64,000 bases of DNA from positions 1 to 64,000 of the forward strand of contig NZ_JAASRW010000002.1 in NCBI RefSeq assembly GCF_011761355.1, read 5' to 3'. The notes beneath the pieces are model-generated. The model searched no databases, had not been told where the DNA came from, and was given only the letters and a program-made list of their open reading frames with translations. The number at the start of each line of letters is the position of its first letter. Positions within the stretch are counted from its first letter, which is position 1. The DNA comes from Paenibacillus lupini. Lineage in GTDB: Bacteria > Bacillota > Bacilli > Paenibacillales > Paenibacillaceae. The position numbers were made by a program, and so were the translations under genes. Below, one piece after another: positions 3,205-25,615 of this stretch.

Positions 3205-3903
3205 ATGGGACTGTTTGCTGCAATTGCTTTGTTCATTAAGCAGCTTTCGCTGCTCGTATCGTACGTGAAAAATAATGCTTTTCCGCAGCCGCTTCATGAA
3301 GAGGAAGAGATGAAGCATCTGCAGTTGATGGCAGAGGGCAATGCGCATTCGCGCAATCTGTTGATTGAACATAATTTGAGGTTAGTCGCGCACATTGTAA
3401 AAAAATTCGACAACACCGGGGAAGACCTTGAGGATCTGATCTCGATTGGCACGATTGGGCTTATCAAAGCAATCGAGAGTTTTCAGACAGGTAAGGGGAC
3501 GAAGCTCGCGACATTCGCCGCTCGTTGTATTGAGAATGAAATACTTATGCATTTGCGCTCTTTGAAGAAGACTAGGAAAGACGTTTCTTTGCATGACCCT
3601 ATTGGTACGGACAAAGAAGGCAATGAAATTACATTGATCGACATCCTCGGCACAGAAGCCGACGACGTTGTTGACCGGGTGCAGCTGAAGATCGAGAAGA
3701 GCAAGATCTACCGCAACCTCGATATACTCGATGAGCGGGAGCAGGAAGTGATCCGCGGCAGGTTTGGCCTGGATCATGGTGGGGATGAGCGGACGCAGAG
3801 GGAGATTGCGAAGGAGCTTGGTATCAGCCGGAGTTATGTTTCGCGGATTGAGAAAAGGGCGTTGATGAAGCTTTATCATGAGTTTTATAAGGCGAAGAAG
3901 TGA
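3205..3903 (+). CDS. sigK: RNA polymerase sporulation sigma factor SigK (intact copy)
   Basis: A 232-residue sigma-70 family protein matching sigma-K along its whole length. It has a short hydrophobic pro-region ([20 protein letters not shown]) that SpoIVFB would remove, then the [11 protein letters not shown] stretch typical of sigma-K, region 2 ([19 protein letters not shown], then [20 protein letters not shown]) and region 4 ([20 protein letters not shown]). Sigma-K directs late mother-cell transcription during sporulation. A GGGGGTGCAGGA ribosome site precedes ATG 3205. In many sporulators sigK is interrupted by a skin element; here it is uninterrupted, but its last 171 codons and terminator are duplicated at 24964-25564, and a scrap of its 3' end recurs at 34223. 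Confidence 0.96.
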
Positions 3904-3991
3904 CCTTATGATACTGAAGCAAAAGGACGCCATCGAGATGATCTCACTCGATCCGTCCTTTTTTTGCTTGTTTTTGAGCTTCAGATGCCGA
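3391..3991 (+). repeat. 601-bp direct repeat, copy 1 (sigK 3' part plus terminator)
   Basis: This block is repeated at 24964-25564 with a constant offset of 21573. The first ~130 bp differ at many synonymous positions, the middle has a cluster of five differences (copy 1 near 3621-3657), and the last ~335 bp through the terminator are identical as far as GCTTCAGATGCCGA, where similarity stops abruptly. Confidence 0.95.
3922..3965 (+). terminator. sigK terminator (copy 1)
   Basis: AAAGGACG pairs with CGTCCTTT around an inner ATCGAG/CTCGAT stem, followed by a T run. The same structure is present behind the second sigK copy. Confidence 0.88.
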
Positions 3992-4000
3992 CTAGGCTGG

Positions 4001-4204
4001 ATGCGTATAAAAGTCCCCGCTAGGAAACGATCGATTTACAAAGCAGAGCTACTTATATCTATGGAAGAAATGGATCCGGAATTTTCACTAACAGTTGAGG
4101 GGTTGGTGGCCATTTTAATTATTGATATGGTGAATGAATCGAGGAAAGGCTACAACAATAAATATGTTCAGCGGCTAATTGGACAGCTTAGAGAAGCGAG
4201 GTAA
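4001..4204 (+). CDS. Hypothetical protein fragment (67 aa)
   Basis: An open frame starting MRIKVPARKRSIYKAELL and ending VQRLIGQLREAR, directly after the end of the sigK repeat block. Composition looks protein-like (amphipathic, basic ends, central DPEFSLTVEGLVAILIID), but there is no clear ribosome site and I recognise no family. It may be the 3' remnant of a longer gene cut by the recombination junction at 3991. It heads a run of decayed fragments. Confidence 0.35.
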   Translation: MRIKVPARKRSIYKAELLISMEEMDPEFSLTVEGLVAILIIDMVNESRKGYNNKYVQRLIGQLREAR

Positions 4205-4235
4205 GGATTAAAGCGTGCGTGTCATTGTTTCGTCC

Positions 4236-4257
4236 ATGGGTAACTTTAGTTACCCAT
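4236..4257. terminator. Possible hairpin terminator
   Basis: ATGGGTAAC pairs perfectly with GTTACCCAT around a TTTA loop. The downstream run is only mixed A/T, so termination is uncertain. Confidence 0.4.
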
Positions 4258-4284
4258 TAATTTATCGAAGAGATAAATAATTAC

Positions 4285-4614
4285 GTGACCTAAAGGACTA
4301 TATACGACTAAAGGAACTTCCTGACCAAGAGTATCAATACATGATTAAGCGTATGGAAGGCATTAACTCTTTTTGATATTAATTACTACGAGAAAATTAC
4401 TTTACAGAACATTTTACACCTTCAGCATCACTTCGGAGTTAGTTATATTCAAACTGTACGGATGTTGAATAAATTTCATATCTTATCCGACATTCAGATG
4501 ACCAAATTTAAATCGTATAGCACAAAAGAAGATCCACAGCATCTAATTTTATTAACTCAAGAGTCCATCCAACTCTTCACGTATACCGTCCTAATTCATG
4601 GAAAGTATAGTTGA
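4285..4614 (+). pseudogene. Frameshifted remnant resembling an ImmA/IrrE-type protein C-terminus
   Basis: Two frames join near 4372. One gives LKELPDQEYQYMIKRMEG and the next gives FDINYYEKITLQNILHLQ, then HHFGVSYIQTVRMLNKFHIL, ending at TGA 4612. The pattern 'L..LQ..FGVS...T.RMLN...IL' is like the region after the HExxH site in ImmA/IrrE metallopeptidases, which cleave repressors of mobile elements. No HExxH region is present, so only a tail would remain. The family assignment is by eye and weak; that it is broken coding sequence is firmer. It would fit a former mobile element in this zone. Confidence 0.4.
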
Positions 4615-4721
4615 TAACATTCATAATAATCGATTGACTTCAAGAAAAGTTATGCATCTTGAAAATCTATTAAGTATCCCCCTCATAGATATAATACCTG
4701 AAAAGAAACAGGGGAAAGAGG

Positions 4722-4913
4722 ATGAATAGTAAGTCTGTTGTTATTTCTGGTACAGATATTTTAGGGCATATTATTATTGGTGGTATCTTCAATGTGCTTG
4801 TGCCGAATGTTATAGAAGAGATTTACATAACTCCTCAGATTGAAAAAGAGTTTCCATCAATTGAATTTTTTATAACTCGTTTCTGTACCTCTGTCAATAA
4901 ATTAGACACATAA
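4722..4913 (+). pseudogene. PIN-domain-like N-terminal fragment (63 aa)
   Basis: The frame starts behind GGGGAAAGAGG and reads MNSKSVVISGTDILGHIIIG, then NVLVPNVIEEIYITPQIEKE. This resembles the first strand-helix unit of a PIN ribonuclease (usually 'VISDTDIL'), but the first acidic residue of that motif is Gly here and the protein stops at 63 residues, about half of a PIN domain. It runs into an IS3-type transposase tail 12 bases later, so truncation by an insertion is plausible. The PIN assignment is tentative. Confidence 0.4.
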
Positions 4914-4924
4914 AACCGAGAGAA

Positions 4925-5000
4925 TTAGGCCGCAGTACGGTGCATACGTTCGTATTGATTAGGTGTGTGATACCCTATGGAAGAATGGATTCCTTCACGG
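4925..5000 (-). mobile_element. IS3-family (IS150-like) transposase C-terminal remnant
   Basis: Read on the minus strand, 24 codons encode REGIHSSIGYHTPNQYERMH followed by RTAA and a stop. The 'HSSIGYHTPNQYE' motif is the conserved end of the integrase (rve) domain in IS3/IS150 OrfB proteins. Everything upstream is lost, and at 5000 the sequence switches to an unrelated gene fragment. No inverted repeats can be assigned. Confidence 0.8.
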
Positions 5001-5003
5001 CCA

Positions 5004-5504
5004 TAATTGGGATTCGTACACGCTCGGCAAGCATTGGTACCAGCATCTGCCCTACGGTCAAGTCTGTACGGCGGAGACGCAGGCGTACTTAAACTTCGCG
5101 CAAGTAACGAGCCATATGAGCAGTTATAAACCGGACGATTGGCAAACCAAAAACGAGTGGGTGCGCACGTACCTCAATCCGTACCGTGAGTGGATCGGCG
5201 CGCAAATTAGAGCGGACGCCTGAGGTTGCGGGCCAGCCGGAGCTTGCGTTCATCGCGGCCATGATTGGGGCGGCTTTCACCGAAACCGATAACGAGCGGA
5301 TCATTGCCATCGGCCTTGGCCAAATTCCGTCTACCTGCAGGCTTGCCGCCGACATTCAGCAGGCGGTAGACATTGCCCGCAGCGTCAAGGACCGGCTGAA
5401 GCTGGTAGATGAAATATGGCGCACATTCAACCATTACCCATCCCGTCCATACGAATAACAATGTCGCCTTAGTTGCCGTATCGCTCATCGGTTCCTTCCG
5501 GTAA
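5004..5504 (+). pseudogene. Decayed ADP-ribosylglycohydrolase family protein
   Basis: Three consecutive frames make one degraded protein. Frame one reads KHWYQHLPYGQVCTAETQAY and then NPYREWIGAQIRADA with a stop at 5221. Frame two (after a shift and probable internal loss) reads PELAFIAAMIGAAF and GLGQIPSTCRLA. Frame three near 5440 reads HPVHTNNNVALVAVSLIGSF and stops at 5502. 'NP(Y/F)REWIGAQIRAD', 'AAMIAAAF' and 'VHTNNNVALVA' are signatures of the DraG/ADP-ribosylglycohydrolase superfamily found in sugar-catabolic gene clusters. The 5' end is replaced by the IS3 remnant. It has at least two frameshifts and no intact metal site, so it cannot be functional. Confidence 0.85.
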
Positions 5505-5548
5505 AAACAAGCACACACGAGCGAATCATCGTTCATGTGTGCTTGTTT
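5505..5548. terminator. Bidirectional terminator
   Basis: AAACAAGCACACA (5505-5517) pairs perfectly with TGTGTGCTTGTTT (5536-5548). It lies between the pseudogene and the convergent DUF4127 gene. Confidence 0.85.
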
Positions 5549-5561
5549 GGTTATATCGCGG

Positions 5562-7139
5562 CTATTCGGCCGCCACTTCCTCCCGGCTCTCCAGCCGGAC
5601 ATGAAAACCAACCTCGAACATCCGTTTCCAAGGCATTCGAAGGTCGCAGAGCTGAATCCGCTCCGGCTGCAAGTCCTTCAAATATTTGCTGGTAAATACG
5701 GTAAGCATGGATCTTACAAGCTCAACGACCTGATCGTACTGGCCGGAGATGTCGAAATAGGTACCTCCGATTGCCGGAAGATGGGCGGTATGAATCTGAG
5801 ATCGAGCGATCGATTGATATCCCCAGTCTTCAACCAGGCGCTGAATGTAGAACTCCCGGCTGTACCGTCCTCGCGCCTCGCTGTCCGCCTGCGGCTGCCG
5901 CATATAATAACTTTCAATAATTCCATGGGCAATGACCGTTCCAAGGGTATTGCCGGATGTATTCCAGCCGGCATAGGCATGGATGGAACCGAGTAGCCCG
6001 AGGGTTGATAGGGATTGCATGAGCGAATGATCGCTCCCGTTCAATGTGGCTACGTCCGCCAGTGCAACGGCCTTGCCTTTGCCCAGATATCGCCGGAGTG
6101 CCGTCGTAAACTCACGGGGATTGATCTCGGAGAAATACGAACGATGCCGTTCACAAACCGGAGTCGAGCCGCCGGCGATGGCATTCTGTCCGTTTGCAGG
6201 CGAATGAACCATAAGAATGAGGTCGGCTTCGCTTGCGGAATCACCGATGAACCCGCCGGCTGCGGTGACGTGCGCTTTGACGCTTTCGCCGAGCGTACGG
6301 TCCTCGAGACTTGGAATGATGGAAGGGCCAAGCGTGGAGGAGTATCGGACATACAGCTCCGGCTCGAAATGATGGAGATCGCAGAAAACCCGGCTCATCA
6401 AGGTACAGCCTGCTTCGTCCGCTCCCGGATAGATATGGATGCGGTCATTCAAATTCAGGCTGTCGGCTAGCGCGATCAGGTTGTTTCGTTCGGAGGCGGT
6501 GAAGCCGAATTCGGCGTTGTCGTCGAGCGGGATAATGAGCATGTCAAGCACGTTCTCTTGAACGAGCATGATGGAGGCTTCATTGACTGCCGCATTCACG
6601 CTTCGGCGGTTCAAATGCTCTTCAAGCACAAGAGTTGGAATGGCTTTCTGTACATGATCCCAATCGGCTTGCTCGGAAGTCTGGAGTGGATGATGGGTTC
6701 TTTTGTCCTGTAACCAAGAATACTGATAGATTAGCTTTCCGTACTGCGCATAGTAGGAAGGCTCCTCGTCGTCGCTGTCGTAGGAAGGCGTGCGCATGAT
6801 CAAGTTCGTGCCGAAGATTTTAAGGGAAGGACAGGCGGCTTTCAGTTCGCGGAGCAACTGCAGCTTGGCTAATGCCTCTTCTTGCGTAAAATGATGCAGC
6901 CGCGAGGGCACGATGCCGCCATAGACGAGCATGTCGATCGAGACGATCAGCGCCTCCGCGTCCTCCGCAGCGCCGAGCAGCCACTGCTCGATTGCGGTAT
7001 GCTCAGCTGGTTGTTTCTTCTGACCGAGTATGCGGATGGAAGGGGAGTTAACGGTCATACCGGCAAGTCGTGCCAGCTCAAGCGGGTATTGTACATTGCA
7101 AGGTCTCTCATCTAAAGGTAAATAAGCAACCTGGAACAT
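5562..7139 (-). CDS. DUF4127 family protein
   Basis: A 525-residue cytosolic-looking protein starting MFQVAYLPLDERPCNVQYPL. The opening 'YLPLDERPCN' and the later ALIVSIDMLVYGGIVPSR and LDDNAEFGFTASERNNL stretches are hallmarks of the DUF4127 family, whose activity I do not know. Family members often sit in carbohydrate clusters. ATG 7139 has GGAGG nine bases upstream; the longer reading from TTG 7154 overlaps that ribosome site. It is transcribed divergently from nanE, sharing a 160-bp control region, and is high in GC like the rest of the island. A processing role for an acidic or amino sugar is a guess from context only. Confidence 0.85.
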   Translation of the reverse strand: MFQVAYLPLDERPCNVQYPLELARLAGMTVNSPSIRILGQKKQPAEHTAIEQWLLGAAEDAEALIVSIDMLVYGGIVPSRLHHFTQEEALAKLQLLRELKAACPSLKIFGTNLIMRTPSYDSDDEEPSYYAQYGKLIYQYSWLQDKRTHHPLQTSEQADWDHVQKAIPTLVLEEHLNRRSVNAAVNEASIMLVQENVLDMLIIPLDDNAEFGFTASERNNLIALADSLNLNDRIHIYPGADEAGCTLMSRVFCDLHHFEPELYVRYSSTLGPSIIPSLEDRTLGESVKAHVTAAGGFIGDSASEADLILMVHSPANGQNAIAGGSTPVCERHRSYFSEINPREFTTALRRYLGKGKAVALADVATLNGSDHSLMQSLSTLGLLGSIHAYAGWNTSGNTLGTVIAHGIIESYYMRQPQADSEARGRYSREFYIQRLVEDWGYQSIARSQIHTAHLPAIGGTYFDISGQYDQVVELVRSMLTVFTSKYLKDLQPERIQLCDLRMPWKRMFEVGFHVRLESREEVAAE

Positions 7140-7236
7140 ATGAATTTCCTCCAATACCGAATTGTGGAAGCCTATTTATTATAGCATCCAAATAAAAGAG
7201 AATATATCCAAAAACAATTAAATAAAAAAACAATTC

Positions 7237-7291
7237 TTCCATTAGCGGCGGGACGGTGTTATGATGGTTACAAATACCAGTAACTGTTACT
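7237..7291 (+). promoter_or_regulatory. nanE promoter region with 13-bp palindrome
   Basis: A -10 TATGAT (7260-7265) with a weak -35 TTCCAT 17 bases upstream precedes a perfect palindrome AGTAACTGTTACT at 7279-7291. The palindrome lies where a repressor would cover the transcription start; the RpiR regulator encoded downstream is the obvious candidate. A further GTTAC at 7267-7271 extends the repeat pattern. Confidence 0.45.
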
Positions 7292-7315
7292 TCCATAGCC
7301 AAAGGAGCGGATAGG

Positions 7316-8014
7316 ATGAAACGATCGCTCATTAAGAAGCTGCAAAACGGATGTATCGTCTCGTGCCAGGCGTTAGAGCATGAGCCTCTGTTTGGATCCG
7401 ACATTATGAGCGCTATGGCAGTTGCAGCCGAAAAAGGCGGTGCGGCGGCGATTCGGGCCAATACGCCGAAGGATGTAGCGTCGATTAAACAACGCTGCTC
7501 GCTGCCGGTCATCGGTTTATATAAGAAGAACTATCCGGACAGCCAAATCTACATTACGCCGACGATGAGAGAAGTCGAGGAGCTGGCCGCCGCCGGAGCC
7601 GATCTAATCGCACTGGATGCAACCGATCAGCATAGACCGGGCGGGCAAGACTTTTCTGCGCTTCTTGAGCAGATTCGGAGCACGTTTCCAGATATTCCGA
7701 TTGTAGCCGATGTCTCGACCTATGAAGAAGGCGTTCGGGCGATGGAGCTTAAGGTCGACGTCGTGTCAACGACGATGTCCGGCTACACGCCTTACAGCAC
7801 CCAGATGGAAGGGCCGGACATTGAGCTGGTAGAACGGCTGGCGGGATTGAGCGATGTGCCGGTTCTGGCTGAAGGCCGGATTTGGACCGTAGATGATATG
7901 ATTCGGTGCTTCGAAGCCGGGGCTTACGGAGTTGTCGTCGGCACTGCGATTACGAGGCCGCAGGAGATTACGAGAAGATTCGTCAGAGCAATCCACAAAC
8001 GTGTTAACAATTAA
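7316..8014 (+). CDS. nanE: N-acetylmannosamine-6-phosphate 2-epimerase NanE
   Basis: A 232-residue TIM-barrel enzyme, full length for NanE, which converts ManNAc-6-P to GlcNAc-6-P. Typical segments are IVSCQALEHEPLFGSDIMSA, the catalytic-lysine stretch LPVIGLYKKNYPDSQIYITP, DLIALDATDQHRPGG, VDVVSTTMSGYTPYS and the catalytic-glutamate stretch PVLAEGRIWT. It is first in a rightward operon (nanE, rpiR, ROK kinase, phosphoesterase), and together with the ROK kinase makes a ManNAc route. No N-acetylneuraminate lyase (nanA) is in the cluster, so the ManNAc may not come from sialic acid. ATG 7316 follows AAAGGAGCGG. Confidence 0.94.
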   Translation: MKRSLIKKLQNGCIVSCQALEHEPLFGSDIMSAMAVAAEKGGAAAIRANTPKDVASIKQRCSLPVIGLYKKNYPDSQIYITPTMREVEELAAAGADLIALDATDQHRPGGQDFSALLEQIRSTFPDIPIVADVSTYEEGVRAMELKVDVVSTTMSGYTPYSTQMEGPDIELVERLAGLSDVPVLAEGRIWTVDDMIRCFEAGAYGVVVGTAITRPQEITRRFVRAIHKRVNN

Positions 8015-8163
8015 ACTCATCCCCCCGCTTATTCCTTACTATGCTCTTAAATAGAGGAGTTTTCTTCCGAGATTATCCGGCTAGAGTGGAATATCCCTTG
8101 CGAGTACAGCGCCTATCATCTATTCTTTCATTAATAAACGGAAATGAACAAGGGAGAGAAATA

Positions 8164-9033
8164 ATGAAAAAAGTGCGCAAATTTAATAATTCCACCAATA
8201 CGCTGCTCTTGATATCAAGCGTGTATTCCTCGATGACCAAAGCGGAGAAAAAGGTCGCCGACGCGGTGCAGAACAATCCGGAAGAGGCCGTTCTTGCCAC
8301 GGTTACGGATTTGGCGGAGACGGCCGGGGTTGGCGAAACGTCGGTCATTCGGTTCTGCCGAACGCTTGGCTTTCGCGGCTATCATGACTTCAAGCTATCC
8401 ATCGCACAGGATCTGGTCAATATGCCGAGCTATACCAGCGGCGAAATCGATGATGAAGACGAACCGATGGAAATTGCCCGCAAAGTGACGCTCAACAATG
8501 AGAATGTTCTGAAGGGCACGCTTGATCTGCTGGACCTGGAACAGATTGATCAGGCGGTATCATCGATATTAGGCGCGAAGCAGATTTATATTTACGGCGT
8601 CGGATCTTCGGGCATTACCGCGCTGGATGCCCATTATCGGCTCATGCGTCTGGGCTTCAAGGTGGAAGCGCAGCGCGATGCCCACATCATTGCGATGTCA
8701 GCCGCGCTAGTAGATAAGGAAGACGTGGTCATTGGCATTTCGACCTCTGGCAGCACGAAGGATCTTGTCGATCCGATCAAGCAGGCGAAGAGTAATGGCG
8801 CTACCGTCATTTGTCTGACCAGTCATGCGAGGTCGCCGATTACGAACTATGCGGATACCGTGCTGCTCATTCCATCACGGGAAATGCCCTTTCAGGGAGG
8901 CGCACTGTCGACCAAAATGGCACAAATTCACATGCTGGACATCTTGTCGACCATTATCACATCGAAGAAGAAAAGCGAAACAAGCGATTCGATCACGAGA
9001 ACAGCGAATGCGGTAGCGGATAAGCTCTACTAG
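8164..9033 (+). CDS. MurR/RpiR-family transcriptional regulator
   Basis: A 289-residue regulator. The N-terminal HTH_6 domain (about 1-80) includes KAEKKVADAVQNNPEEAVLA and GVGETSVIRFCRTLGFRGYH; the C-terminal SIS sugar-phosphate-binding domain (about 115-250) includes IYIYGVGSSGITALDAHYRL and DVVIGISTSGSTKDLVDPIK. Such regulators usually sense a phosphosugar such as ManNAc-6-P or GlcNAc-6-P. ATG 8164 follows AGGGAGAG; the longer frame from 8041 lacks a ribosome site. It lies 150 bases behind nanE and is likely to control the island through the palindrome at 7279. Confidence 0.92.
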   Translation: MKKVRKFNNSTNTLLLISSVYSSMTKAEKKVADAVQNNPEEAVLATVTDLAETAGVGETSVIRFCRTLGFRGYHDFKLSIAQDLVNMPSYTSGEIDDEDEPMEIARKVTLNNENVLKGTLDLLDLEQIDQAVSSILGAKQIYIYGVGSSGITALDAHYRLMRLGFKVEAQRDAHIIAMSAALVDKEDVVIGISTSGSTKDLVDPIKQAKSNGATVICLTSHARSPITNYADTVLLIPSREMPFQGGALSTKMAQIHMLDILSTIITSKKKSETSDSITRTANAVADKLY

Positions 9034-9068
9034 AGCGGGACCGCTGCCTTGCCGCGAGGGGGATAAGG

Positions 9069-10031
9069 ATGCTGGAGCTGTCGGTAGGCGTGGATATCGG
9101 CGGGACGAAAATTCATGCTGCCTTGGTAGACGGACAGGGACGTATCTATGTGGAGGAGAAATTGCCGACAGATTCCGCGAAGGGGGCGGACAGCGTGATG
9201 GAGCGGGTGCTGCAGAGTATTGAGCGCATGCTGGATTCGGCCCCTCGCGCGGCGCAATCCGCTGCGATCCAAGGAATCGGCATCGGCAGCGCAGGGCAGA
9301 TTGATTTTTCCACCGGTACCGTTGCATTTGCGGTCGATACGTTGCCCGGGTGGACGGGAACCCGGATTAAGGCAAGAACAGCGGAGCGGTTTCCCGATTT
9401 ACCTGTTATCGTGGATAACGACGTCAATTGTGCAGCTGTCGCCGAGCAGCGGATTGGAGCGGCAAGCGGGCTGCGCAATTTTATTTGCCTGGCGCTTGGA
9501 ACCGGAATCGGCGGCGCTATTATCGCGGACGGCAAGCTGGTACGCGGCACATATGGCGGGGCAGGCGAATTGGGTCATGTGTCCGTCGATTTTAACGGCC
9601 CCCGATGCTCCTGCGGTAACCGCGGCTGTCTGGAGCTTTATGCTTCCGGCCCTGGAATTGCGAGAATCGCCAGAGAGGGCTCCTTCTCGTTCGCGGATTC
9701 GCGGCAAGTCATAGAAGCTTGGCTGGCGGGAGATTCTCAGGCGAACCAAGTCATGGATATCGTGATCAGGGCGTTAGCTTCGGGCATAAGCGGCTTTATC
9801 CATACGTTCAATCCGGAAGCGGTCATTATCGGCGGCGGCGTAGCGGAGGCAGGCGAGCGATTCCTTCATTCCATCCGGCAAGAAACGGAGCGGCGAACCT
9901 CTGCGGCGATGTGGAAGGCCGTGCAGCTGGAGCCGGCCGCCGCGGGCAACCATGCCGGTGTGATCGGTGCCGCCCTGCAGATGTGGCACTACTCTGTATT
10001 AGAATTACGGGGCGAGGGGGGAGCGGGATGA
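9069..10031 (+). CDS. ROK-family sugar kinase (ManNAc/glucose kinase type)
   Basis: A 320-residue ROK kinase. The ATP-binding motif VGVDIGGTKIHAAL is at residues 6-19, the sugar site and catalytic aspartate are in VDNDVNCAAVAEQ, the phosphate loop is LALGTGIGGAII, and the zinc-binding motif is GPRCSCGNRGCLELYASG with the preceding ELGH. In this context N-acetylmannosamine is the most likely substrate (NanK role), but ROK kinases cannot be told apart by sequence alone. Its stop overlaps the start of the phosphoesterase gene (ATGA, 10028-10031), so the two are translationally coupled. Confidence 0.9.
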   Translation: MLELSVGVDIGGTKIHAALVDGQGRIYVEEKLPTDSAKGADSVMERVLQSIERMLDSAPRAAQSAAIQGIGIGSAGQIDFSTGTVAFAVDTLPGWTGTRIKARTAERFPDLPVIVDNDVNCAAVAEQRIGAASGLRNFICLALGTGIGGAIIADGKLVRGTYGGAGELGHVSVDFNGPRCSCGNRGCLELYASGPGIARIAREGSFSFADSRQVIEAWLAGDSQANQVMDIVIRALASGISGFIHTFNPEAVIIGGGVAEAGERFLHSIRQETERRTSAAMWKAVQLEPAAAGNHAGVIGAALQMWHYSVLELRGEGGAG

Positions 10032-17836: not shown

Positions 17837-19219
17837 ATGGAGCGTACAATCCGTAAGTCTGCCACGATCCTTGCCGTTACGATGATGATGTCTTCGCTGC
17901 TTGCAGCTTGCAGCGGTTCGAACAATACCCCCGATAACACCAAACAGAATGCTGAGGCAACGCCGAGTGCCGCGTCGAATAACACGAAGGAAGAGGGCGA
18001 GGGCAGCAAGCAGGAGCCCGAGAAGAAAGAGCCGGTTGAGCTTAGCTTCTGGACGATCTCGCTCAGCCCGAACTTCGACGACTATATCAATGGACGCATT
18101 AAAGTGTTTGAAGATCAGAACCCCGGCATTACCGTCAAATGGACCGACCTGCCATACGGCGCCATGGAGAACAAGCTTCTTACCTCCATCGCAGGCGGGA
18201 AATCTCCGGACGTCGTCAATCTGAATACCGGCATGACGATGACGCTTGCCGGCAAGAACGCCCTCGTCGACCTTAACGCAGAAGCGACCGAAGAACAACG
18301 CTCCATCTACTTCGAAGACCTCTACAACTCGACCAAGCTTGGCAATAGCGCCTATGCTTTCCCATGGTATTATGGACTCTCCGTCTTTGCGTATAACAAG
18401 AAAATCTATGAGGATGCCGGACTTGATCCGAACAAGCCGCCAACTACGATGGAAGAGCTGAAGCAGCAAGCCATCACCATCAAAGAAAAGACCGGCAAAT
18501 ACGGCTTTGTCCCAAGCTATAATCCGCCTGCGGATTTCTACTTCCAGGGCGTGCCGATCATCAGCGAGGACAAAACCAAAATTATCGTCAATACGCCGGA
18601 AGCGCTCGCTTGGGCGAAATGGAGCAAGGAGCTCTACGATAAGGGCATCGTTCCGAAGGAAAGCATCAGTGCGGATGCCAACTACGCGACGGATAAATAC
18701 CAGTCCGGCCAAATCGCGACGCTGATCACCGGCGCACAGTTCCTCAACCGTGTGAAGACGAATGCGAAGAATATCTATGACCAAACGCTCGTCGCCAAGA
18801 TGCCTTCCCTCAAGCCAGGCGGCAAGTATCAAGCGGGCCTCATGAACGTCGTTGTTCCTACCATGAGCAAGAATCATCCGGAGGCCATCGCATTCGCGAA
18901 CTTTATTACGAATGACGAGTCTCAGTTAGCGTTTGCGAAGATCGTCAACATCCTGCCTTCGACCAAGAAAGCGGCTGCGGATCCTTTCTTCACGGAAGCA
19001 GGGACCGATTCGGAGTCGATGGCCAAGGTCATCACCGCCCAAATGGCCTCGCAGGCACAAGACTTCTCGCTTGGCATCCGTAATGAGGGCGAAGTGCTGG
19101 ACTTCCTGTGGAAGGGCTGGCAGGCGATGCTGACTGGGAAGGAAACGCCGGAGGAAATGCTGAAGAACGCAGAGGAGAACATGCAGAAGAAGCTCGATGA
19201 GATTAATGCGGAGAACTGA
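17837..19219 (+). CDS. Sugar ABC transporter substrate-binding lipoprotein (SBP_bac_1)
   Basis: A 460-residue lipoprotein. The signal sequence ends in the lipobox SLLAACSG (Cys at about residue 25), then comes a Ser/Asn/Glu-rich linker and the extracellular solute-binding family 1 fold (ELSFWTISLSPNFDDYINGR; AYAFPWYYGLSVFAYNKKIY; ANYATDKYQSGQIATLITGA). It captures an oligosaccharide outside the membrane for the two permeases that follow. ATG 17837 follows AAGGGGAG. It belongs to the GC-rich island and probably imports the glycan released by the GHL10 hydrolase. Confidence 0.93.
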   Translation: MERTIRKSATILAVTMMMSSLLAACSGSNNTPDNTKQNAEATPSAASNNTKEEGEGSKQEPEKKEPVELSFWTISLSPNFDDYINGRIKVFEDQNPGITVKWTDLPYGAMENKLLTSIAGGKSPDVVNLNTGMTMTLAGKNALVDLNAEATEEQRSIYFEDLYNSTKLGNSAYAFPWYYGLSVFAYNKKIYEDAGLDPNKPPTTMEELKQQAITIKEKTGKYGFVPSYNPPADFYFQGVPIISEDKTKIIVNTPEALAWAKWSKELYDKGIVPKESISADANYATDKYQSGQIATLITGAQFLNRVKTNAKNIYDQTLVAKMPSLKPGGKYQAGLMNVVVPTMSKNHPEAIAFANFITNDESQLAFAKIVNILPSTKKAAADPFFTEAGTDSESMAKVITAQMASQAQDFSLGIRNEGEVLDFLWKGWQAMLTGKETPEEMLKNAEENMQKKLDEINAEN

Positions 19220-19292
19220 TTTGCTAAGTTTCTTAAGGGAGCGGGCGCTAAGCCCGCTCTTACCTGACAGCTGAAGCGAAAGGAGGGTGGGG

Positions 19293-20189
19293 ATGGCGGC
19301 ATCCAAGGAACGGAAGCGGCGGTACCGGTTCGCGTATATGATGCTGACACCAGGCGTGATTCTGCTCATCGTATTTACCTTTTATCCGGTTATTTACGGC
19401 CTGCCCCTGGCATTCACGAACTATTCCGCCGTTGATACGACGGACTGGGTCGGATTCAAAAACTTCGATAAAGCATTCCACGACCCAGATTTCTGGATCT
19501 CTCTTAAAAATTCGCTCCTCTATGTCATCGTCGTCCCGGTCATTCAGATTCTATCGATTCTTATGGCCGTACTGGTGAATAACAAGCTTCGTTTCGTGCA
19601 GTTCTTCCGGGTCGCCTATTTCATTCCTGTCGTCACCTCGATGGTTGCGGCGGCGATCGCCTGGAAGTGGGTGTTCGAAGAGCAGGGAATCTTGAACTAC
19701 TTTCTTGAAACCTTAGGCGTAATCGATGAGCCGATCTCCTTCATGGCCGAACCGAAGCTGGCGCTTTATGGCGTCATGTGCGTCACGATCTGGAAGGGCC
19801 TTGGCTACTACATGATGATTTATTTGGCGGGCTTGCAGTCGATCCCGTCCGAGCTTCAGGAGGCAGCCCGTATTGACGGTGCCGGCTGGCTGCAGGTAAT
19901 CTGGCGCATTACGATCCCGCTGCTGATGCCTTTTGTCTTGTTATGTTCCTTAATGTCCGTCATGGGCGCCATTCGCGTATTTGACGAGATATTCGTCATG
20001 CATGGGCCGAAAGGGGACCCCGTATCGTCAACACTCGTCACCAGCGTTTATACCTACAAGCTGGCTTTCCAGGACTTTAACTTCGGTTATTCGGCTGCAG
20101 TCGGTCTAGTCGTATCACTGCTCATTATGGTCCTGACGATCCTGCTGTTCCGTTATACGCGAAAAGGAGGGCTGACCTATTATGAGTGA
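19293..20189 (+). CDS. Sugar ABC transporter permease (MalF-like)
   Basis: A 298-residue membrane protein with six membrane segments. The EAA loop reads SELQEAARIDGAGWLQVIWR, matching family-1 carbohydrate permeases, which contact the shared ATPase. AGGAGG at 19281-19286 sets ATG 19293 rather than GTG 19287, which would be too close. It lies 73 bases after the binding-protein gene and overlaps the next permease by eight bases. Confidence 0.93.
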   Translation: MAASKERKRRYRFAYMMLTPGVILLIVFTFYPVIYGLPLAFTNYSAVDTTDWVGFKNFDKAFHDPDFWISLKNSLLYVIVVPVIQILSILMAVLVNNKLRFVQFFRVAYFIPVVTSMVAAAIAWKWVFEEQGILNYFLETLGVIDEPISFMAEPKLALYGVMCVTIWKGLGYYMMIYLAGLQSIPSELQEAARIDGAGWLQVIWRITIPLLMPFVLLCSLMSVMGAIRVFDEIFVMHGPKGDPVSSTLVTSVYTYKLAFQDFNFGYSAAVGLVVSLLIMVLTILLFRYTRKGGLTYYE

Positions 20190-21066
20190 AGCCGCCTCCC
20201 TGGCATCGCCGGAGCGTGACCGCAGTCGAACGAGGAAGAGAAGGTTTGCGAAGAAGCTCATCGCGCCCCTCATCCTTTACCCGCTGCTTATCCTGACCGC
20301 GCTGATTTGTCTGGGGCCGTTCCTTTGGCTGCTCTCGACCGCGCTCAAAACAGGCGATAACGTATACGCTTTCCCGCCGCAGTTTATTCCGAACCCGATC
20401 ACGTTCGATAATTTCATCGATGTCTTCAATATTATGCCGTTGTGGCATTATATCTGGAATACGGTCTATATGACCGTGCTGGGAGTCGGTCTTAACCTGC
20501 TCTTGTGTACGATTACGGCTTATCCGCTTGCGCGCATTTCGTTCCCGGGCCGCAGTTTTATCTTCTATGCGATTGTCAGCACGATGATTCTGCCGAATGC
20601 GGCTGGGATGATCGTCAACTTTATCATTATCAACAAGTTCGGCTTATACAACTCGATGCTCGGCGTCGTGCTTCCTTCTGCGATCAGTGTGTTTAATATT
20701 TTTCTGCTCCGGCAGGCGTTTATTACGATTCCGAACGATATGGAGCATTCCGCGCGTGTGGATGGCGCCGGTGAATTCCGGATTTTTCTCATCATCATGC
20801 TGCCGATGATCCGCCCGGCCGTGGCAACCGTTCTCATCTTCGACTTTATGGCCTTCTGGAACAGTCTGATCTGGCCGGTAATTGTATTCGACGATCAAAG
20901 CAAGTATCCGCTTGGCCCGGCCCTTCAATATCTTAATGGCACGCTGGCGTATAACTTCCCTTATATCGCGGCCGGTACGATTATATCGATTCTGCCGATT
21001 GTCATCATCTTCCTGTTCCTCCAAAAGCAATTTATTAACGGCATGGTCGGCGCGGTGAAGGGTTAG
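20182..21066 (+). CDS. Sugar ABC transporter permease (MalG-like)
   Basis: A 294-residue partner permease with a basic N-terminus (RDRSRTRKRRFAKK), six membrane segments and the EAA loop motif IPNDMEHSARVDGAGEFRIF. It overlaps the upstream permease gene by eight bases, so the two are coupled. No ATPase gene follows; a genome-wide MsmX-type ATPase probably energises it, as in B. subtilis. Confidence 0.93.
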   Translation: MSEAASLASPERDRSRTRKRRFAKKLIAPLILYPLLILTALICLGPFLWLLSTALKTGDNVYAFPPQFIPNPITFDNFIDVFNIMPLWHYIWNTVYMTVLGVGLNLLLCTITAYPLARISFPGRSFIFYAIVSTMILPNAAGMIVNFIIINKFGLYNSMLGVVLPSAISVFNIFLLRQAFITIPNDMEHSARVDGAGEFRIFLIIMLPMIRPAVATVLIFDFMAFWNSLIWPVIVFDDQSKYPLGPALQYLNGTLAYNFPYIAAGTIISILPIVIIFLFLQKQFINGMVGAVKG

Positions 21067-21078
21067 CGCACACAAAGA

Positions 21079-21117
21079 AACTGCCTGTTATCATTCGAAT
21101 AATGACGACAGGCAGTT
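21079..21117. terminator. Bidirectional terminator
   Basis: AACTGCCTGT pairs with ACAGGCAGTT, with an inner TCATT/AATGA extension. It separates the permease from the convergent N-acetyltransferase. Confidence 0.88.
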
Positions 21118-21132
21118 CTTGTATTTAAACGA

Positions 21133-21903
21133 CTAGTCCAGCTTGATCCCAAAGTGCTGGCGTAACGCTTCCTTGTATGCTTCGTCCGATTGGGGCGTGA
21201 ACACGTTGACCCCATCTTGGGCAAACAGACGGAATTCCTTCCCGGCCACCGTGTTCCGGCCCTCCCGGGTGCGGATGGCTACCATCTCTGCCTTCGTAAA
21301 GATTGAGTCCGGCGCATGCTCGCACCAATAGCTGGCCATGATGTAATCCTTCGACAGCTGCGGCTCCTCCGTGAATGAATAGAGCCGGCACCAATCTCCA
21401 TGCTTCAGTTCGCACAGCATCCAGCCGTAGTAAGGGTCTTTGTCCAATCGGTAAGTTTCATCGCCCTGCCGGTGCGGAAGCCCCTCGACCATGGCGACTG
21501 GCCGACGGGGAACGATGCCGCCGACGCCAACGTCACATAAATAGGTTTGGTCCCCGGCTTCAACCTTCAGCACTTGATGGCGGCGTTTCGGAGGAGGGGA
21601 CGGCTCGTCGCGCCAAAAGCGGGCGAACAGATCGGTTACAGGGTATCCCAGCTCGCGCAGCAGCCATCCGAACAGCGCGTTCAACTCGAAGCAATAACCT
21701 CCGCGCCGCCTGACGACAATTTTATCGAATAGGTGATCGATCTCAAGCGAGATCGGCACGCCGCGCACAATGTCCAAATTCTCATAAGGCACGGCGTGAA
21801 GATGACAGTCCTGCAGATCTGCGAGCGCTTGAGCGCTTCTGTCCAGCGGTCTGTCATAGCCGATTCGATCTAAATAGAGCTGAACCTTGCTTTTCACGTC
21901 CAT
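21133..21903 (-). CDS. Arylamine N-acetyltransferase (NAT)
   Basis: A 256-residue NAT enzyme that transfers acetyl groups from acetyl-CoA to arylamines or hydrazines. The catalytic triad is visible as Cys71 in VRRRGGYCFELN, His109 in RRHQVLKV and Asp124 in YLCDVGVGGIVPRRP; the N-terminal HLHAVPYENLDI is also typical. Length and order are normal. It has its own leftward transcription unit, and its high GC matches the island, so it may have arrived with it. I see no functional link to the sugar genes. Confidence 0.93.
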   Translation of the reverse strand: MDVKSKVQLYLDRIGYDRPLDRSAQALADLQDCHLHAVPYENLDIVRGVPISLEIDHLFDKIVVRRRGGYCFELNALFGWLLRELGYPVTDLFARFWRDEPSPPPKRRHQVLKVEAGDQTYLCDVGVGGIVPRRPVAMVEGLPHRQGDETYRLDKDPYYGWMLCELKHGDWCRLYSFTEEPQLSKDYIMASYWCEHAPDSIFTKAEMVAIRTREGRNTVAGKEFRLFAQDGVNVFTPQSDEAYKEALRQHFGIKLD

Positions 21904-22003
21904 ATTTCCGTTCTCCTCCCTTAAGACTAGTTTAGATCTAGTTTAACTCAAGCTTGTCATGAGGGGTGACAGTTGTTGTCGAACGAGCCGGTGGAATTAA
22001 AAA

Positions 22004-22035
22004 AGATGACCTTGATGTAGAAGGTCATCTCTTGG
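22004..22035 (-). terminator. Terminator for leftward transcription
   Basis: AGATGACCTT pairs with AAGGTCATCT; on the minus strand the stem is followed by a T run (TCTTTTTT). It would end a leftward transcript coming from about 22.3 kb. Confidence 0.65.
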
Positions 22036-22273
22036 CTGCTTAATTCCGCGGTGATGTATTTAAACTGTTCGCTTGGTGACGAACAGAGATGGGAATGGGA
22101 TTTTTGCTGTCGAAGGTACGGCTGTGAGGATTGTGGCAGTAGCGGATATAGAGAGCGCTGGGTGGATGGTGAACTTCGTAGATTATCCTGCGCTGGTTAT
22201 GGCATGAATATGCATGAAGTGGGACAAGCAGCTTTGTTACGTTAACGGGCAGAATATTTCAGCTTCTCCTGGA

Positions 22274-22405
22274 TTAGCAGAGTATAGCTGCTTTCGCGAG
22301 GTTGATCATAAAAGCAATGAAAGACATAATCAATTGTACTACCCCAGCACCATTTAATCGGTCCATTACATTTCTCTTAGTACGGAGTTCATCAAGTTCT
22401 CTCAT
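22274..22405 (-). CDS. Small possible Spo0E-like / membrane-tailed peptide (43 aa)
   Basis: A minus-strand frame reading MRELDELRTKRNVMDRLNGA with a hydrophobic tail (VVQLIMSFIAFMI). In-frame sequence before the ATG reads NSFDLISEPV, so the line 'FDLISEPVMRELDELRTKRN' loosely resembles the Spo0E phosphatase motif (SxELDxLI), but the key Ser is Met. Tail and motif together do not fit Spo0E well. It may be a remnant. Low confidence. Confidence 0.25.
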   Translation of the reverse strand: MRELDELRTKRNVMDRLNGAGVVQLIMSFIAFMINLAKAAILC

Positions 22406-22844
22406 AACTGGCTCGCTGATCAGATCAAAACTATTGACGAGGCGTAGTTGAACTCATTTGGGATCGACGTGAAGTCGAAGTCGTGTCGAAGCACGTACAC
22501 GTAAAGCTGCAGGCCGAAACATCGTAATGGCTATTGCGGATCGGGTCAAGCTATAAAAATCATGTCAAGTCCCTGGTTAATTTCCTTGAGACGTTTGGAT
22601 ACGAGTTGACAATATCCGATCATCTCATTCGGTCAGAAAGGGTCGTTTACAACATTAAGTCTCCGGTGAAAAAAGTAATAGACTGACTCCAATATTATAG
22701 CAGCGTTAGCGGCCCAAGATCTTATAAATAGGTATTGGGCTGCGGCATTAAACGTGCAGGTTAGTTAAAGAAGTATACAGTGGAAGAGATTGAGAGGAAG
22801 GGATTAGCTAATTCTTATTGATGTTATGATATGGGTGAATCTCA

Positions 22845-23723
22845 ATGGGAAATTTTACGGCGTTAGAACGAGTTATGGGCGATGCTTTATTAAAAAATAA
22901 CCTTCTTTTCTATGAACAGGTCTATACAAAAACCGAAGTCAGTTATTTTATTTTTGATATTGTTGTTTATGGGGAAACCTATAAAATTGTTGTAGAATGT
23001 GATGGTCCCTTTCATAATTCAGAACACCAACAAATAAAAGACAGTCTTCGCGATCTGTGGACGATCCAAAACGGAATTCAATCCGTTCTCCGATTCGAAC
23101 AATTTGAAATATATCGAGATGTACAAAAGTGCATCGAAAAGATAAAAAAAGAGCTCCACGCGCTTGATGCTGCCCTTTGCCATGACAAATCAAGAGTCGA
23201 AAAAATAGCAAAGGAAAAGCGCGAGCTTATCTTAAGAAATCGAGAAAGATATTCGGAAAGTCCATATTCCAATAAACGTGTACAAATATGGAGAGCCGAG
23301 GATGCTGAGCGTAAAAGACAACGAAATTGGATGGAAACACATGCGGTTTCACGCAGTACTGGAAACCTCATAACTCTACCACCGAAGTTTCCTGAAAATA
23401 ACTATCCAAATTATGAGGCAGCATACAAAAACACATCTATTACAAATGACCAGGTTAAACCTCGAAGTATAGAGCAGCAAATCCCGAATGGTGAACAATC
23501 CGTATTACTAGAAATGAAAAAATTAGCCCAACCACAAAAAAGACTGTTGATGAAATTCATCAAAAATAGCAATAAAGACGGGATCTGTACTTATCGTGGC
23601 AACTTAATCGATATCCAAGATTTTATCAAACAAGGATTTATTGTTCCAAATCGTATGAATCAAGTAACCTTCTTCGTGCTTCCTAACACACCCTATCTAT
23701 TCAAAGCATTAAAAAACGGATAA
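22845..23723 (+). CDS. DUF559/Vsr-like PD-(D/E)XK nuclease-fold protein
   Basis: A 292-residue protein. The N-terminal third fits the DUF559 endonuclease-like fold: FIFDIVVYGETYKIVVECDG carries the expected Asp39 and Glu51 followed by PFHN (His57), then KDSLRDLWTIQNGIQSVLRF. The middle is charged and helical (KSRVEKIAKEKRELILRNRE). The C-terminus (about 220-292, QKRLLMKFIKNS... FIKQGFIVPNRMNQ) may be a small winged-helix domain. DUF559 proteins are linked to DNA repair, mobile elements and restriction. The ATG 22845 start lacks a strong ribosome site. It is AT-rich, unlike the island next door, and surrounded by decayed fragments. Confidence 0.65.
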   Translation: MGNFTALERVMGDALLKNNLLFYEQVYTKTEVSYFIFDIVVYGETYKIVVECDGPFHNSEHQQIKDSLRDLWTIQNGIQSVLRFEQFEIYRDVQKCIEKIKKELHALDAALCHDKSRVEKIAKEKRELILRNRERYSESPYSNKRVQIWRAEDAERKRQRNWMETHAVSRSTGNLITLPPKFPENNYPNYEAAYKNTSITNDQVKPRSIEQQIPNGEQSVLLEMKKLAQPQKRLLMKFIKNSNKDGICTYRGNLIDIQDFIKQGFIVPNRMNQVTFFVLPNTPYLFKALKNG

Positions 23724-23976
23724 TCAAAATAGAAACAAATGATTATTGCCTCCAGTAAAGAGATCCGATTTCGAATTGTCCTCAAGGCGGTAGGCGCTAG
23801 AAATTCAAGCTGGCAAAACACAACAGGATTGAACTAACTGGGAACGATAGGCGAAGAAATAGCAGGAAGAAGTTGCCGGCACTAATCGGCAGCTTTTTTA
23901 CGTTAATGAACAGTATTGCGTAAGTCGATGTCAAATATATGAATTTAAAAGTTTATTGGTGTTTTGGGGGAATCGC
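23724..23976. other. Spacer with terminator
   Basis: About 250 bases with no gene. It contains the hairpin at 23871-23900 and an AT-rich lead-in to a truncated P-loop frame. Confidence 0.5.
23871..23900 (+). terminator. Terminator after the nuclease gene
   Basis: An 8-bp stem AGTTGCCG/CGGCAGCT (one G-U pair) followed by TTTTTT. Confidence 0.7.
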
Positions 23977-24093
23977 ATGCAGAAGGATTGCAAATTGATT
24001 TTGGTCGAAGGGTTGTGCGGCACGGGGAAATCTACGTTGGCGGAGCGATTGCATCAGTACTTGGTTAACAACTTCTCGAATAATACAAATTAG
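23977..24093 (+). pseudogene. Truncated P-loop kinase fragment (38 aa)
   Basis: The frame reads MQKDCKLILVEGLCGTGKST followed by LAERLHQYL and stops at 24091. The Walker A motif (GLCGTGKST) is intact, but the rest of a nucleoside/nucleotide kinase-like domain is missing. It starts behind TTTTGGGGG. It is probably the 5' end of a gene cut by rearrangement. Confidence 0.65.
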
Positions 24094-24175
24094 ATATTTT
24101 AAACTCCCGATATAAGATTAGGACTGGATGGTGAGCCATAATGAATCGAGTGTATGAATAAACAGGCCAATAATC

Positions 24176-24777
24176 ATGAATGAACCGATGGCAACTATGT
24201 TTGTGTTCGCCGGAATAACGGCAGCGGAAAAAAGTACAATCCGTAATCTTATTATCGATCGACTTGGTGTAAGTGTAAATATAGACCCTGATGCCTTAAC
24301 TCGAGGTATTGATAGTGAAAATCCCGAGCGTAGTAAAGTATCAGCGGGGAAAGACGCAATTAAACTTGTAAGAGAATGCATATTACATCGGCGAGATTTT
24401 ACAGTTGAGACTACACTTGTCAGGTGGCAATGTCATTCGCCAAATGCGTGGAGCGAAATGGCTTCGAAGTCATTATGTTTTATGTAGGACTAGGTGATGT
24501 TCGTCTTAACATTGAACGTGTTGCAGCTCGGGTTCGAAATGCGGTCATCATATTGAATCAGCTGATATTTTTAAGGCGTCATCATACCTCATTGAAAAAT
24601 TTACTTAAACACCTGAACCTCATTGATCATTTGATTGTTATAGATAATAGCAGCACCGAAGGCGAGATTATGCTGGAAGCTGATCGGGAAACCATAAAAA
24701 ATTATGAGAAATTGTTACCTGAGTGGGTACAGAATATTGATTCTCACTTAAAGACTAGAAATAATGATCTTAATTAG
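24176..24777 (+). pseudogene. Frameshifted zeta-toxin-like / AAA-type kinase
   Basis: Spread over several frames. The first reads MFVFAGITAAEKSTIRNLII, then VNIDPDALTRGI and FTVETTL, and shifts near 24420. The next reads FEVIMFYVGLGDVRLNIERV plus AARVR, shifts again near 24540 (a GHHIESADIF frame), and resumes with RRHHTSLKNLLKHLNLIDHL and IVIDNSS. The order 'P-loop, NIDPD, E.TL, YVGL, ERVAxRV, GGHxIxxxDI, RR...SL.NL, DNS' is the zeta-type kinase family. The P-loop itself has decayed (GITAAEKST; the G before K is lost). It is therefore non-functional. No epsilon-type antitoxin gene is visible. Confidence 0.8.
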
Positions 24778-24818
24778 CCGATTACTACTGTCTGCAGACA
24801 GCTAATCGGTTAATTTTT
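24778..24818 (+). terminator. Hairpin terminator after zeta-like pseudogene
   Basis: CCGATTA pairs with TAATCGG, enclosing a second perfect palindrome CTGTCTGCAGACAG. The T-rich sequence TTAATTTTTATTTG follows. Confidence 0.65.
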
Positions 24819-24824
24819 ATTTGT

Positions 24825-24961
24825 AATTACATCGGATCGTGGTACCACAGGTTAGGATTAAAGTTTTACTCGAAAAGAAATTTGCCATGAGATGAACCCA
24901 GTTGGGCGTCCTCGCATAGATTTAATTTATAGTTATAGACTAGAAATTACATCGGATCGTG
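24825..24961. repeat. 17-bp direct repeat pair before the truncated sigK copy
   Basis: AATTACATCGGATCGTG occurs at 24825-24841 and again at 24945-24961, 120 bases apart. The second copy abuts the exact point where similarity to intact sigK begins (24964). This looks like a duplication made during a recombination event. The 100 bases between hold no recognisable gene. Confidence 0.85.
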
Positions 24962-24963
24962 TT

Positions 24964-25476
24964 CACATTGTCAAAAAATTCGATAACACAGGTGAGGATT
25001 TAGAGGATCTGATCTCCATCGGAACGATTGGTTTGATTAAAGCGATCGAAAGCTTTCAAACAGGAAAAGGAACAAAATTGGCTACTTTTGCCGCTCGCTG
25101 TATTGAGAATGAAATACTTATGCATTTGCGCTCTTTGAAGAAGACTAGGAAAGACGTTTCTTTGCATGACCCTATTGGTACGGACAAAGAAGGTAATGAA
25201 ATTACCTTGATCGATATTCTCGGCACTGAAGCCGACGACGTTGTTGACCGGGTGCAGCTGAAGATCGAGAAGAGCAAGATCTACCGCAACCTCGATATAC
25301 TCGATGAGCGGGAGCAGGAAGTGATCCGCGGCAGGTTTGGCCTGGATCATGGTGGGGATGAGCGGACGCAGAGGGAGATTGCGAAGGAGCTTGGTATCAG
25401 CCGGAGTTATGTTTCGCGGATTGAGAAAAGGGCGTTGATGAAGCTTTATCATGAGTTTTATAAGGCGAAGAAGTGA
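24964..25476 (+). pseudogene. sigK: 5'-truncated second copy of sigK
   Basis: From [20 protein letters not shown] to the end, the 170-residue product is identical to the intact SigK at 3205. The DNA differs at many synonymous sites in the first ~130 bp and is then nearly identical. It lacks the pro-region, the [11 protein letters not shown] segment and part of region 2 (the core-binding part), so it could not make a normal sigma factor. An open frame continues upstream to 24892 ([17 protein letters not shown]), but that sequence is unrelated. It retains region 4 and the sigK terminator. Confidence 0.93.
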
Positions 25477-25494
25477 CCTTATGATACTGAAGCA

Positions 25495-25538
25495 AAAGGA
25501 CGCCATCGAGATGATCTCACTCGATCCGTCCTTTTTTT
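25495..25538 (+). terminator. sigK terminator (copy 2)
   Basis: Identical to the hairpin at 3922-3965: AAAGGACG/CGTCCTTT with an inner ATCGAG/CTCGAT stem and a T run. Confidence 0.88.
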
Positions 25539-25615
25539 GCTTGTTTTTGAGCTTCAGATGCCGATTTGAACCAGTCAATGGCTCAAAAAAATAAAAGAAA
25601 ATACTTTATTCCACT

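Follow-up and report, generated by a model that had tools for sequence, protein, structure and literature searches.

We analyzed a stretch of 64,000 nucleotides from Paenibacillus lupini (NCBI RefSeq assembly GCF_011761355.1, contig NZ_JAASRW010000002.1, positions 1 to 64,000 of the forward strand), hereafter the window, in which an intact copy of the sporulation gene sigK and a 5'-truncated copy enclose about 21 kb of other genes. The truncated copy is probably an attR scar, i.e., the right-hand attachment (att) site of foreign DNA inserted at about codon 66 of sigK by a skin-related large serine recombinase. The 21.6-kb segment is most likely the first unit of a foreign-DNA array accreted at that codon, and the structure is most likely skin-related in origin and no longer skin-like in function. 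The genome under study is coded G000, congeners and relatives bear other G numbers, and retrieved loci bear L numbers; the coordinates of the features are given in Table 1.

Results

The repeated sigK of the window

A previous reading made from the letters alone (the sequence-only reading) had described two sigK copies in direct orientation, 21,573 bp apart and sharing a terminator, and both observations were confirmed by a repeat search. Base-by-base comparison places the start of the repeat at 3391/24964, which is codon 63, and its end at 3991/25564, 88 bp beyond the stop codon, terminator included. Identity is 88% over 3391-3690/24964-25263. The 35 differences between the copies are clustered, with 30 among the 127 positions of 3399-3525 and five in 3621-3654, and with none in 3526-3620 or in 3655-3991. 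All 35 are silent, leaving the protein unchanged from codon 63 onward, and thus both copies probably derive from working sigK genes. The patches of full identity suggest past sequence exchange between the copies. The first divergent part stops just before TTGAGAATGAAATAC (3526-3545/25099-25118), which contains AATGA, presumably the core of the Bacillus subtilis skin; this may be chance.

A genome-wide search of G000 for sigK returned the two copies, a match on the same contig that is sigE-like, and 36 bp at 34215-34250 that are left of another sigK 3' end (E 7e-7; 28 bp exact). Over 61 bp this relic is 85% identical to the end of a truncated G031 sigK copy. This relic, the att half-site at the copy boundary described below and the extension of the structure past 25564 go beyond the sequence-only reading.

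Table 1. Features of the sigK region in the window
Feature	Position	Strand	Evidence
Intact sigK, 232 amino acids, codon-66 target site unbroken	3205..3903	+	Open reading frame (ORF); NCBIfam SigK E 3e-116
First repeat copy: sigK codon 63 to 88 bp past stop, with terminator	3391..3991	+	
Inserted cargo, ~21 kb, with genes for sugar and amino-sugar functions, for a DUF559 protein and for a zeta-type toxin (broken)	3992..24946		
DUF4127 protein (cargo)	5562..7154	-	Pfam E 2e-150
Putative N-acetylmannosamine-6-phosphate 2-epimerase (cargo)	7316..8014	+	NCBIfam E 1e-85
ROK-family sugar kinase (cargo)	9069..10031	+	NCBIfam ROK models, below the best model's cut-off
Glycosyl-hydrolase-like GHL10 protein (cargo)	11127..13874	+	Pfam E 2e-35
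DUF559 endonuclease-like protein (cargo)	22845..23723	+	Pfam E 2e-7
Zeta-toxin-like gene, broken, in two frames	24176..24777	+	ORFs; nucleotide matches to relatives
16-bp repeat of the left part of the half-site (ATTACATCGGATCGTG)	24826..24841	+	
Candidate attR: recombinase half-site (P arm) fused to sigK at GTCAA core	24947..24975	+	Junction alignment; pattern search
Truncated sigK copy, 3' part, codons 63-232	24964..25476	+	Repeat comparison; NCBIfam
sigK terminator, second copy	25477..25564	+	Sequence comparison
cysD, right-hand anchor of the sigK region in relatives	25694..26617	+	NCBIfam E 7e-156; positions in relatives
cysN	26619..28280	+	NCBIfam
PrsW-like membrane protein with CdiA C-terminal toxin domain	28591..30822	+	Pfam
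Relic of a further sigK 3' end	34215..34252	+	Similarity search

A recombinase half-site at the sigK junctions

Directly ahead of the truncated sigK in the window stands the half-site TTACATCGGATCGTGTTCACATTGTCAA. A consensus of about 25 bp, TTACATCGGNTYGTGTNCACAAYGTCAA, recurs at the junctions of truncated copies, and the DNA further upstream is mostly unrelated between copies. The left part of this consensus is absent from all 17 intact sigK genes compared. Searched with up to three mismatches, the half-site pattern was hit 65 times, in 30 of the 51 genomes of the genus, and a reversed-pattern control gave none in any of them. Allowing four mismatches in the retrieved loci yields 68 half-sites, including all 65, and 64 of these precede sigK remains (53 by an automatic test and 11 by eye or position, namely the window, L056 and nine others). 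At the remaining four (L129, L130, L135, L144), only some 3 to 11 sigK-like residues follow the site. By orientation, 69 half-sites of congeners are sense and two antisense, one being the attL (left-hand attachment site) of G032 and one having three mismatches. An exact half-site scan of the genome contig collection returned 17 stretches, all from Paenibacillus.

A sigK search in 60 relatives found many 5'-truncated copies in the genus of the window, often several in a row. Among the genus matches listed, 38 of 48 that are not full-length (two split genes included, and the 5'-complete but frameshifted gene of G012 excluded) start at residue 58-68. That gene (L050, 4036-4708) is the only 5'-complete sigK found in G012 and is frameshifted with a stop, either through a sequencing error or because it is broken. 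At the att core, codon 65 reads GTA in the intact copies of G000 and G001, GTG in some genomes and GTC in most.

The half-site of the window thus lies exactly at the gene junction and is common to recombinase-bearing elements, as an attR scar should be. The boundary of the segment carries the half-site of a sigK-targeting serine recombinase, which bears out the sequence-only reading in treating the segment as an insertion tied to sigK. The window has attR only; no attL was found in it.

Elements that split sigK and their recombinase

The sigK coding sequence, uninterrupted in the window, is interrupted in G022, G032 and others. In these two genomes the 5' part runs to about codon 67 and the 3' part starts from about codon 62, and a large serine recombinase (579 and 547 amino acids, respectively) has its 3' end running into the attR junction. 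The attR of G032 fits the half-site consensus with two mismatches. The inner ends of the G032 element, TTCGTGTTCACAACGT and its inverted counterpart, make up a 16-bp inverted repeat, as expected for the attP of a serine integrase. Both recombinases have Resolvase, Recombinase and zinc-ribbon domains (Pfam); their best NCBIfam match is CcrB, and a weak one (E 2e-40 and 5e-40; 139 and 138 bits, against a cut-off of 900).

A profile built from both proteins was run against 392 genomes of the order; relatives turned up in 45 (E<=1e-60), and in 27 of these the match was as strong as E<=1e-160. The weaker 18 include G041, G042, G051, G053 and G054, which have their sigK split around codon 112. Among 29 loci retrieved, 12 show the 3' end of the recombinase gene abutting sigK from residue 53-65 onward. 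Nineteen recombinase genomes (18 of the 27 strong ones plus G190) were searched for sigK: 11 are without a full-length gene, and a 5' fragment was found in nine of these 11.

Several further arrangements were observed. In L183, L185-L189 and L198, recombinases of a sister group are encoded immediately upstream of a sigK whose 5' end is complete; this sigK is complete in L187 and L188 and is cut off by the end of the locus in L183, L185, L186, L189 and L198. In G083, sigK is in three pieces on three contigs (residues 2-68, 62-144 and 139-232), as if two elements had inserted, and G114 has an extra piece covering residues 140-231. The 3' and 5' parts of G130 (C1, 1750296 and 1781558) are on opposite strands, as if an inversion had followed insertion. 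The sigK match of the proviral contigs L101-L108, L110, L111 and others is interrupted around residues 136-145, which adds a further site to codons ~66 and ~112.

A spare sigK, complete in itself, is found in some elements. In G084 and G258, a 5' fragment with attL is followed some 190-210 bp further in by a complete sigK, and the recombinase and attR stand 107 and 87 kb further on; a single element presumably fills each gap. In G077, a 5' fragment with a half-site is followed by about 10 kb containing a second, inverse half-site, then by the recombinase and a complete sigK, after which come a degenerate half-site with a 3' part and more truncated copies. G210 has two 5' fragments to the left of an intact sigK and several 3' copies to its right. 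Because a complete spare sigK is a new target, insertions can nest and leave truncated copies.

Arrays between sigK and cysD

cysD was found in 21 of 51 genomes, 16 of which have sigK on the same contig. It lies downstream of sigK on the same strand in 13 of the 16 and more than 1 Mb away in G010, G014 and G033. The 13 gaps are 2.0, 4.0, 6.4, 18.8, 21.8 (the window), 31.1, 41.7, 45.2, 45.8, 46.4, 50.1, 72.4 and 100.0 kb; in the window, the truncated sigK ends 217 bp before cysD. G072 has one full-length sigK, 41.7 kb from cysD, and no sigK coding sequence beside cysD, where a sigK-type terminator is 82% identical over 81-93 bp to that of the window. Rows of integrase-less units with half-sites occur in G001, G017, G031 and others, and only the attR side was found in them; direct P.P' sites or attL were not found in congener arrays beyond G032.

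The sequence-only reading would have been contradicted by the same layout and intervening genes across the genus; the intervening genes differ between species. Strains with a single sigK, whose existence it had made a check, occur as well: for 11 of the 36 congeners G001-G036, the match counts at E<=1e-40 point to a single full-length sigK without any truncated copy, the second match being sigE-like in those for which it was listed (for G024 it was not shown). In four of the 11 (G010, G013, G014, G018), short relics stand close by or decayed copies lie elsewhere.

Different species have blocks between sigK copies in common. The pairs measured are 95-99% identical, as compared with 78-90% for the core, for which one conserved region (spoIIG) of 12 genomes served as yardstick; block pairs outside these genomes have none. 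Block and core identities are 97.7% vs 83.5% for G012-G021, 96.5% vs 78.4% for G012-G036, and 98.9% vs 81.9% for G003-G026. The block of the window, which runs from the half-site through cysDN, stands out less, at 94.1% identity to G031 (core 87.3%) and 89.2% to G006 (core 76.4%). Among 27 blocks, 24 of 49 internal ends are within sigK fragments (counted within -60/+150 bp), whereas shuffling gave 7.7 +- 2.9 with a maximum of 20 in 2000. In G021 and G036 the intact sigK is followed by the same unit of 4.3 kb; in G012 this unit comes after a truncated copy, with another unit intervening.

Array units or elements at sigK also hold defence-type genes in L046 (3572-9894), L050 (4928-7231) and L258 (14087-16767), namely DUF4297-HerA, PrrC-like PDC-S06 and GajAB. 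In L253 (1238-15618; G101), a 13.8-kb sigK-splitting element has an ArsB arsenical pump gene along with others that appear metal-related by eye.

Cargo and right flank of the window

No recombinase was recognised among the ORFs inside the 21.6-kb segment, in agreement with the sequence-only reading. Pfam and NCBIfam scans took in part of the cargo ORFs. Homologs of the DUF4127 protein were found at E<=1e-100 in seven other genomes of 51, at 46-51% identity, and are thus only distant congeneric relatives. At the nucleotide level, the cargo (3992-24946) has no match at E<=1e-8 to the other sigK stretches compared except within 24144-24900, so that, with the zeta-type module at the right end as the sole match, the other sigK arrays were rejected as a source of the cargo. 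Relatives of this module stand directly ahead of truncated sigK copies in G004, G005, G006, G007 and G010. The first part of the zeta-type gene alone has no Pfam family match; its relative in L074 matches Zeta_toxin (E 6e-8). To the right of cysN, 28591-31274, with the PrsW/CdiA_C protein and the next small ORF, is absent from the otherwise matching region of G031.

A mobile carrier was also sought. Among plasmids, only distant sigma genes or sigK matches of 77-78% on two Bacillus plasmids were found, and no codon-66 truncated sigK was recognised; in the phage searches no such copy was recognised, only distant sigma genes. The 28 viral loci, judged by the limits of their matches, have no half-site at up to four mismatches; many of the limits lie near residues 112 and 136-145, that of L098 near 95, and L112 and L115 are distant relatives.

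Discussion

Origin of the truncated copies

The findings can be joined in one scheme. Foreign DNA would enter sigK at codon ~66 (core GTCAA) by means of a skin-related large serine recombinase, and the sigK 3' part left beyond the insert would be the truncated copy. The incoming DNA would itself supply sigK function, either with a complete spare gene, as in other genera, or with a 3' part that joins the resident 5' part, and the host would thereby retain an intact sigK. The attL side would then be lost. The simplest route may be homologous recombination in which the 5' end of the spare gene pairs with the resident 5' part; this would remove the left-hand remains and give exactly the layout of the window. 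Such a loss would restore the target site and allow repeated insertions, leaving truncated copies in a row between sigK and cysD. For units without the recombinase, this enzyme or one alike presumably acted in trans, and homologous recombination may shuffle units to this day, some of which may still be mobile.

Several observations weigh against this scheme. The recombinase is present at E<=1e-80 in only two of 51 congeners, and hence the arrays would rest on a past or external enzyme. Its remains were not found in the congener stretches, where the half-site closes units of varied gene content, and the half-site of G022 is a variant that the pattern does not match. Some array genomes also encode large serine recombinases of other kinds, seven of 14 genomes having a PF07508 match; G000 has one such match (contig C6, 22.7 bits, cut-off 21.1) and no match to the G022 recombinase at E<=1e-80. 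Neither an array with attL nor an intermediate of the proposed attL loss was found among the congeners. If units brought the 3' part, that part should follow the phylogeny less well, and in 11 genomes sigK nucleotides 200-699 follow core distances better than nucleotides 1-195 do (Spearman 0.81 vs 0.54), with only nucleotides 266-395 failing to follow them (0.15-0.17). Close pairs compared at their intact sigK genes show scattered breakpoints, and a clean one near the site in a single case (G016/G030). That each unit supplies the 3' part is thus unproven gene by gene. Both of these tests used intact sigK genes only. A discordance test between the 5' and 3' phylogenies, limited to ungapped copies of at least 450 nucleotides (45 left, most truncated copies being dropped), was also made; taken together, the outcome was mixed to contrary, and none of it is counted as support. 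Finally, the 3' part beside cysD in the window differs from its counterparts in G031 and G006, although the DNA behind the terminator is nearly identical between the window and G031, and the idea that this copy is the unchanged original host end was not borne out. The copies seem to have been overwritten by recombination, and the sequences of those in the window do not reveal which one is the original. In G020 (C1, 4507463-4507585), a short remnant of a PF07508 recombinase was seen about 2.6 kb beyond a truncated sigK copy.

The strongest competitor is homologous recombination of the Campbell type, as raised by the sequence-only reading, in which circles carrying cargo and a 5'-truncated sigK would integrate through a crossover of ~560 bp, with no recombinase at this step. 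The layout fits exactly, and the patchwork identity of the copies (337 bp identical beside 127 bp at 76%) indicates that they seem to recombine. Shared cargo can stop beside a sigK copy while the copies differ (G003-G026), and scattered breakpoints within sigK also fit. Such crossovers leave unexplained why most copies begin at a common codon of sigK behind the same half-site, with varied neighbors, and a single insertion is too simple for congeners with such copies in rows. We regard this account as plausible, falling somewhat short of an even chance as the explanation, and Campbell-type recombination may well have acted on top of a site-specific origin. Somewhat like integron cassettes, attR-type sites might instead recombine directly with the intact sigK site, both being restored. 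Array copies do have the attR form (P arm plus sigK 3' part) with no attL found beside them, and one unit is common to species at different array positions (G012 vs G021 and G036). The recombinase is nonetheless absent from most array genomes, and attB x attR pairing is unusual for known serine integrases, which makes this route unlikely.

The proposal that the segment is skin-like stands as far as kinship with skin-type site-specific integration is concerned, but not as far as function is. A decayed skin element of the classic kind, which the mother cell would have excised at sporulation, would share the gene and a related recombinase with the split sigK of G022, G032 and other genera, yet the window has an intact sigK, attL and recombinase were not found in it, and the site differs from the codon ~112 splits of G041, G042, G051, G053 and G054; we consider such an origin very improbable. 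Developmental excision, which the sequence-only reading had called unproven, is neither supported nor needed; loss of the segment by recombination between the repeats is possible. A chance segmental duplication or an assembly artefact is hardly credible, even with both copies in one contig of a draft genome: the copies have 35 base differences, none in the protein, and the structure recurs in many assemblies, within one contig in some (G020, G031). Insertion by the skin-related recombinase, followed by loss of attL, is the reading that we prefer.

Comparison with known systems

The skin of B. subtilis is a sigK-intervening element. The staphylococcal cassette chromosome (SCC) inserts at rlmH by means of Ccr serine recombinases and forms composite islands, with rows of elements with and without recombinase. 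The sigK arrays resemble it in their serine recombinase, their single conserved docking gene, their rows of units with and without recombinase and their cargo common to species. In contrast to SCC, the recombinases fall far below Ccr cut-offs, the target is in sporulation gene sigK rather than rlmH, and each insertion leaves a fragment of ~510 bp. In cis-mobilizable elements (CIMEs) and the tandem accretion of integrative and conjugative or mobilizable elements (ICEs and IMEs), units are likewise bounded by att sites without an integrase; in the sigK arrays, unlike these, attL was not found and the repeat is part of a coding gene.

Among skin-type elements, skin-Cd of Clostridioides difficile has its recombinase gene directly upstream of the sigK 3' part (PMC5025042), and the Alicyclobacillus sigK prophage is another sigK-intervening element (PMC13141910). 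The large serine recombinase targeting sigK is alike, and its placement in G022 and G032 is as in skin-Cd. The window differs from such elements in its intact sigK, its attR without a recombinase found, its site at codon ~66 and its insertions in rows, and some relatives differ in carrying a complete spare sigK. Elements within other sporulation genes are gin in gerE, SP-beta in spsM and yin in yabG (PMC5595907, PMC4191935, PMC10747680); gin is described as having serine recombinases and no phage genes. Their target genes, unlike the sigK of the window, are interrupted, and for gin and SP-beta are rebuilt by excision. The sigK structure thus looks like a variant related to skin elements combined with SCC-like accretion, neither a lone duplication nor a classic skin. 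No description of truncated sigK copies in Paenibacillus was found in the open-access literature, subscription journals being mostly uncovered.

Implications

More tentatively, and with the balance leaning against it, sigK could be a genus-wide cassette dock at which a unit of sigK 3' part, cargo and half-site moves between Paenibacillus species. If so, each arrival would swap the end of sigK while the gene stays working, and metabolic and defence genes would ride on an essential spore gene. Units in relatives do carry HerA-DUF4297, PrrC-like and Gabija-like defence genes and an arsenic pump. Elements that target sigK are known as DNA excised for sporulation. Here there seems to be a second solution, in which the element brings a spare sigK or its end and can stay, and the locus becomes a growing island. 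The locus offers a ready test of how an interrupting element becomes tolerated, and such islands can be recognised in genomes by a simple marker, the half-site.

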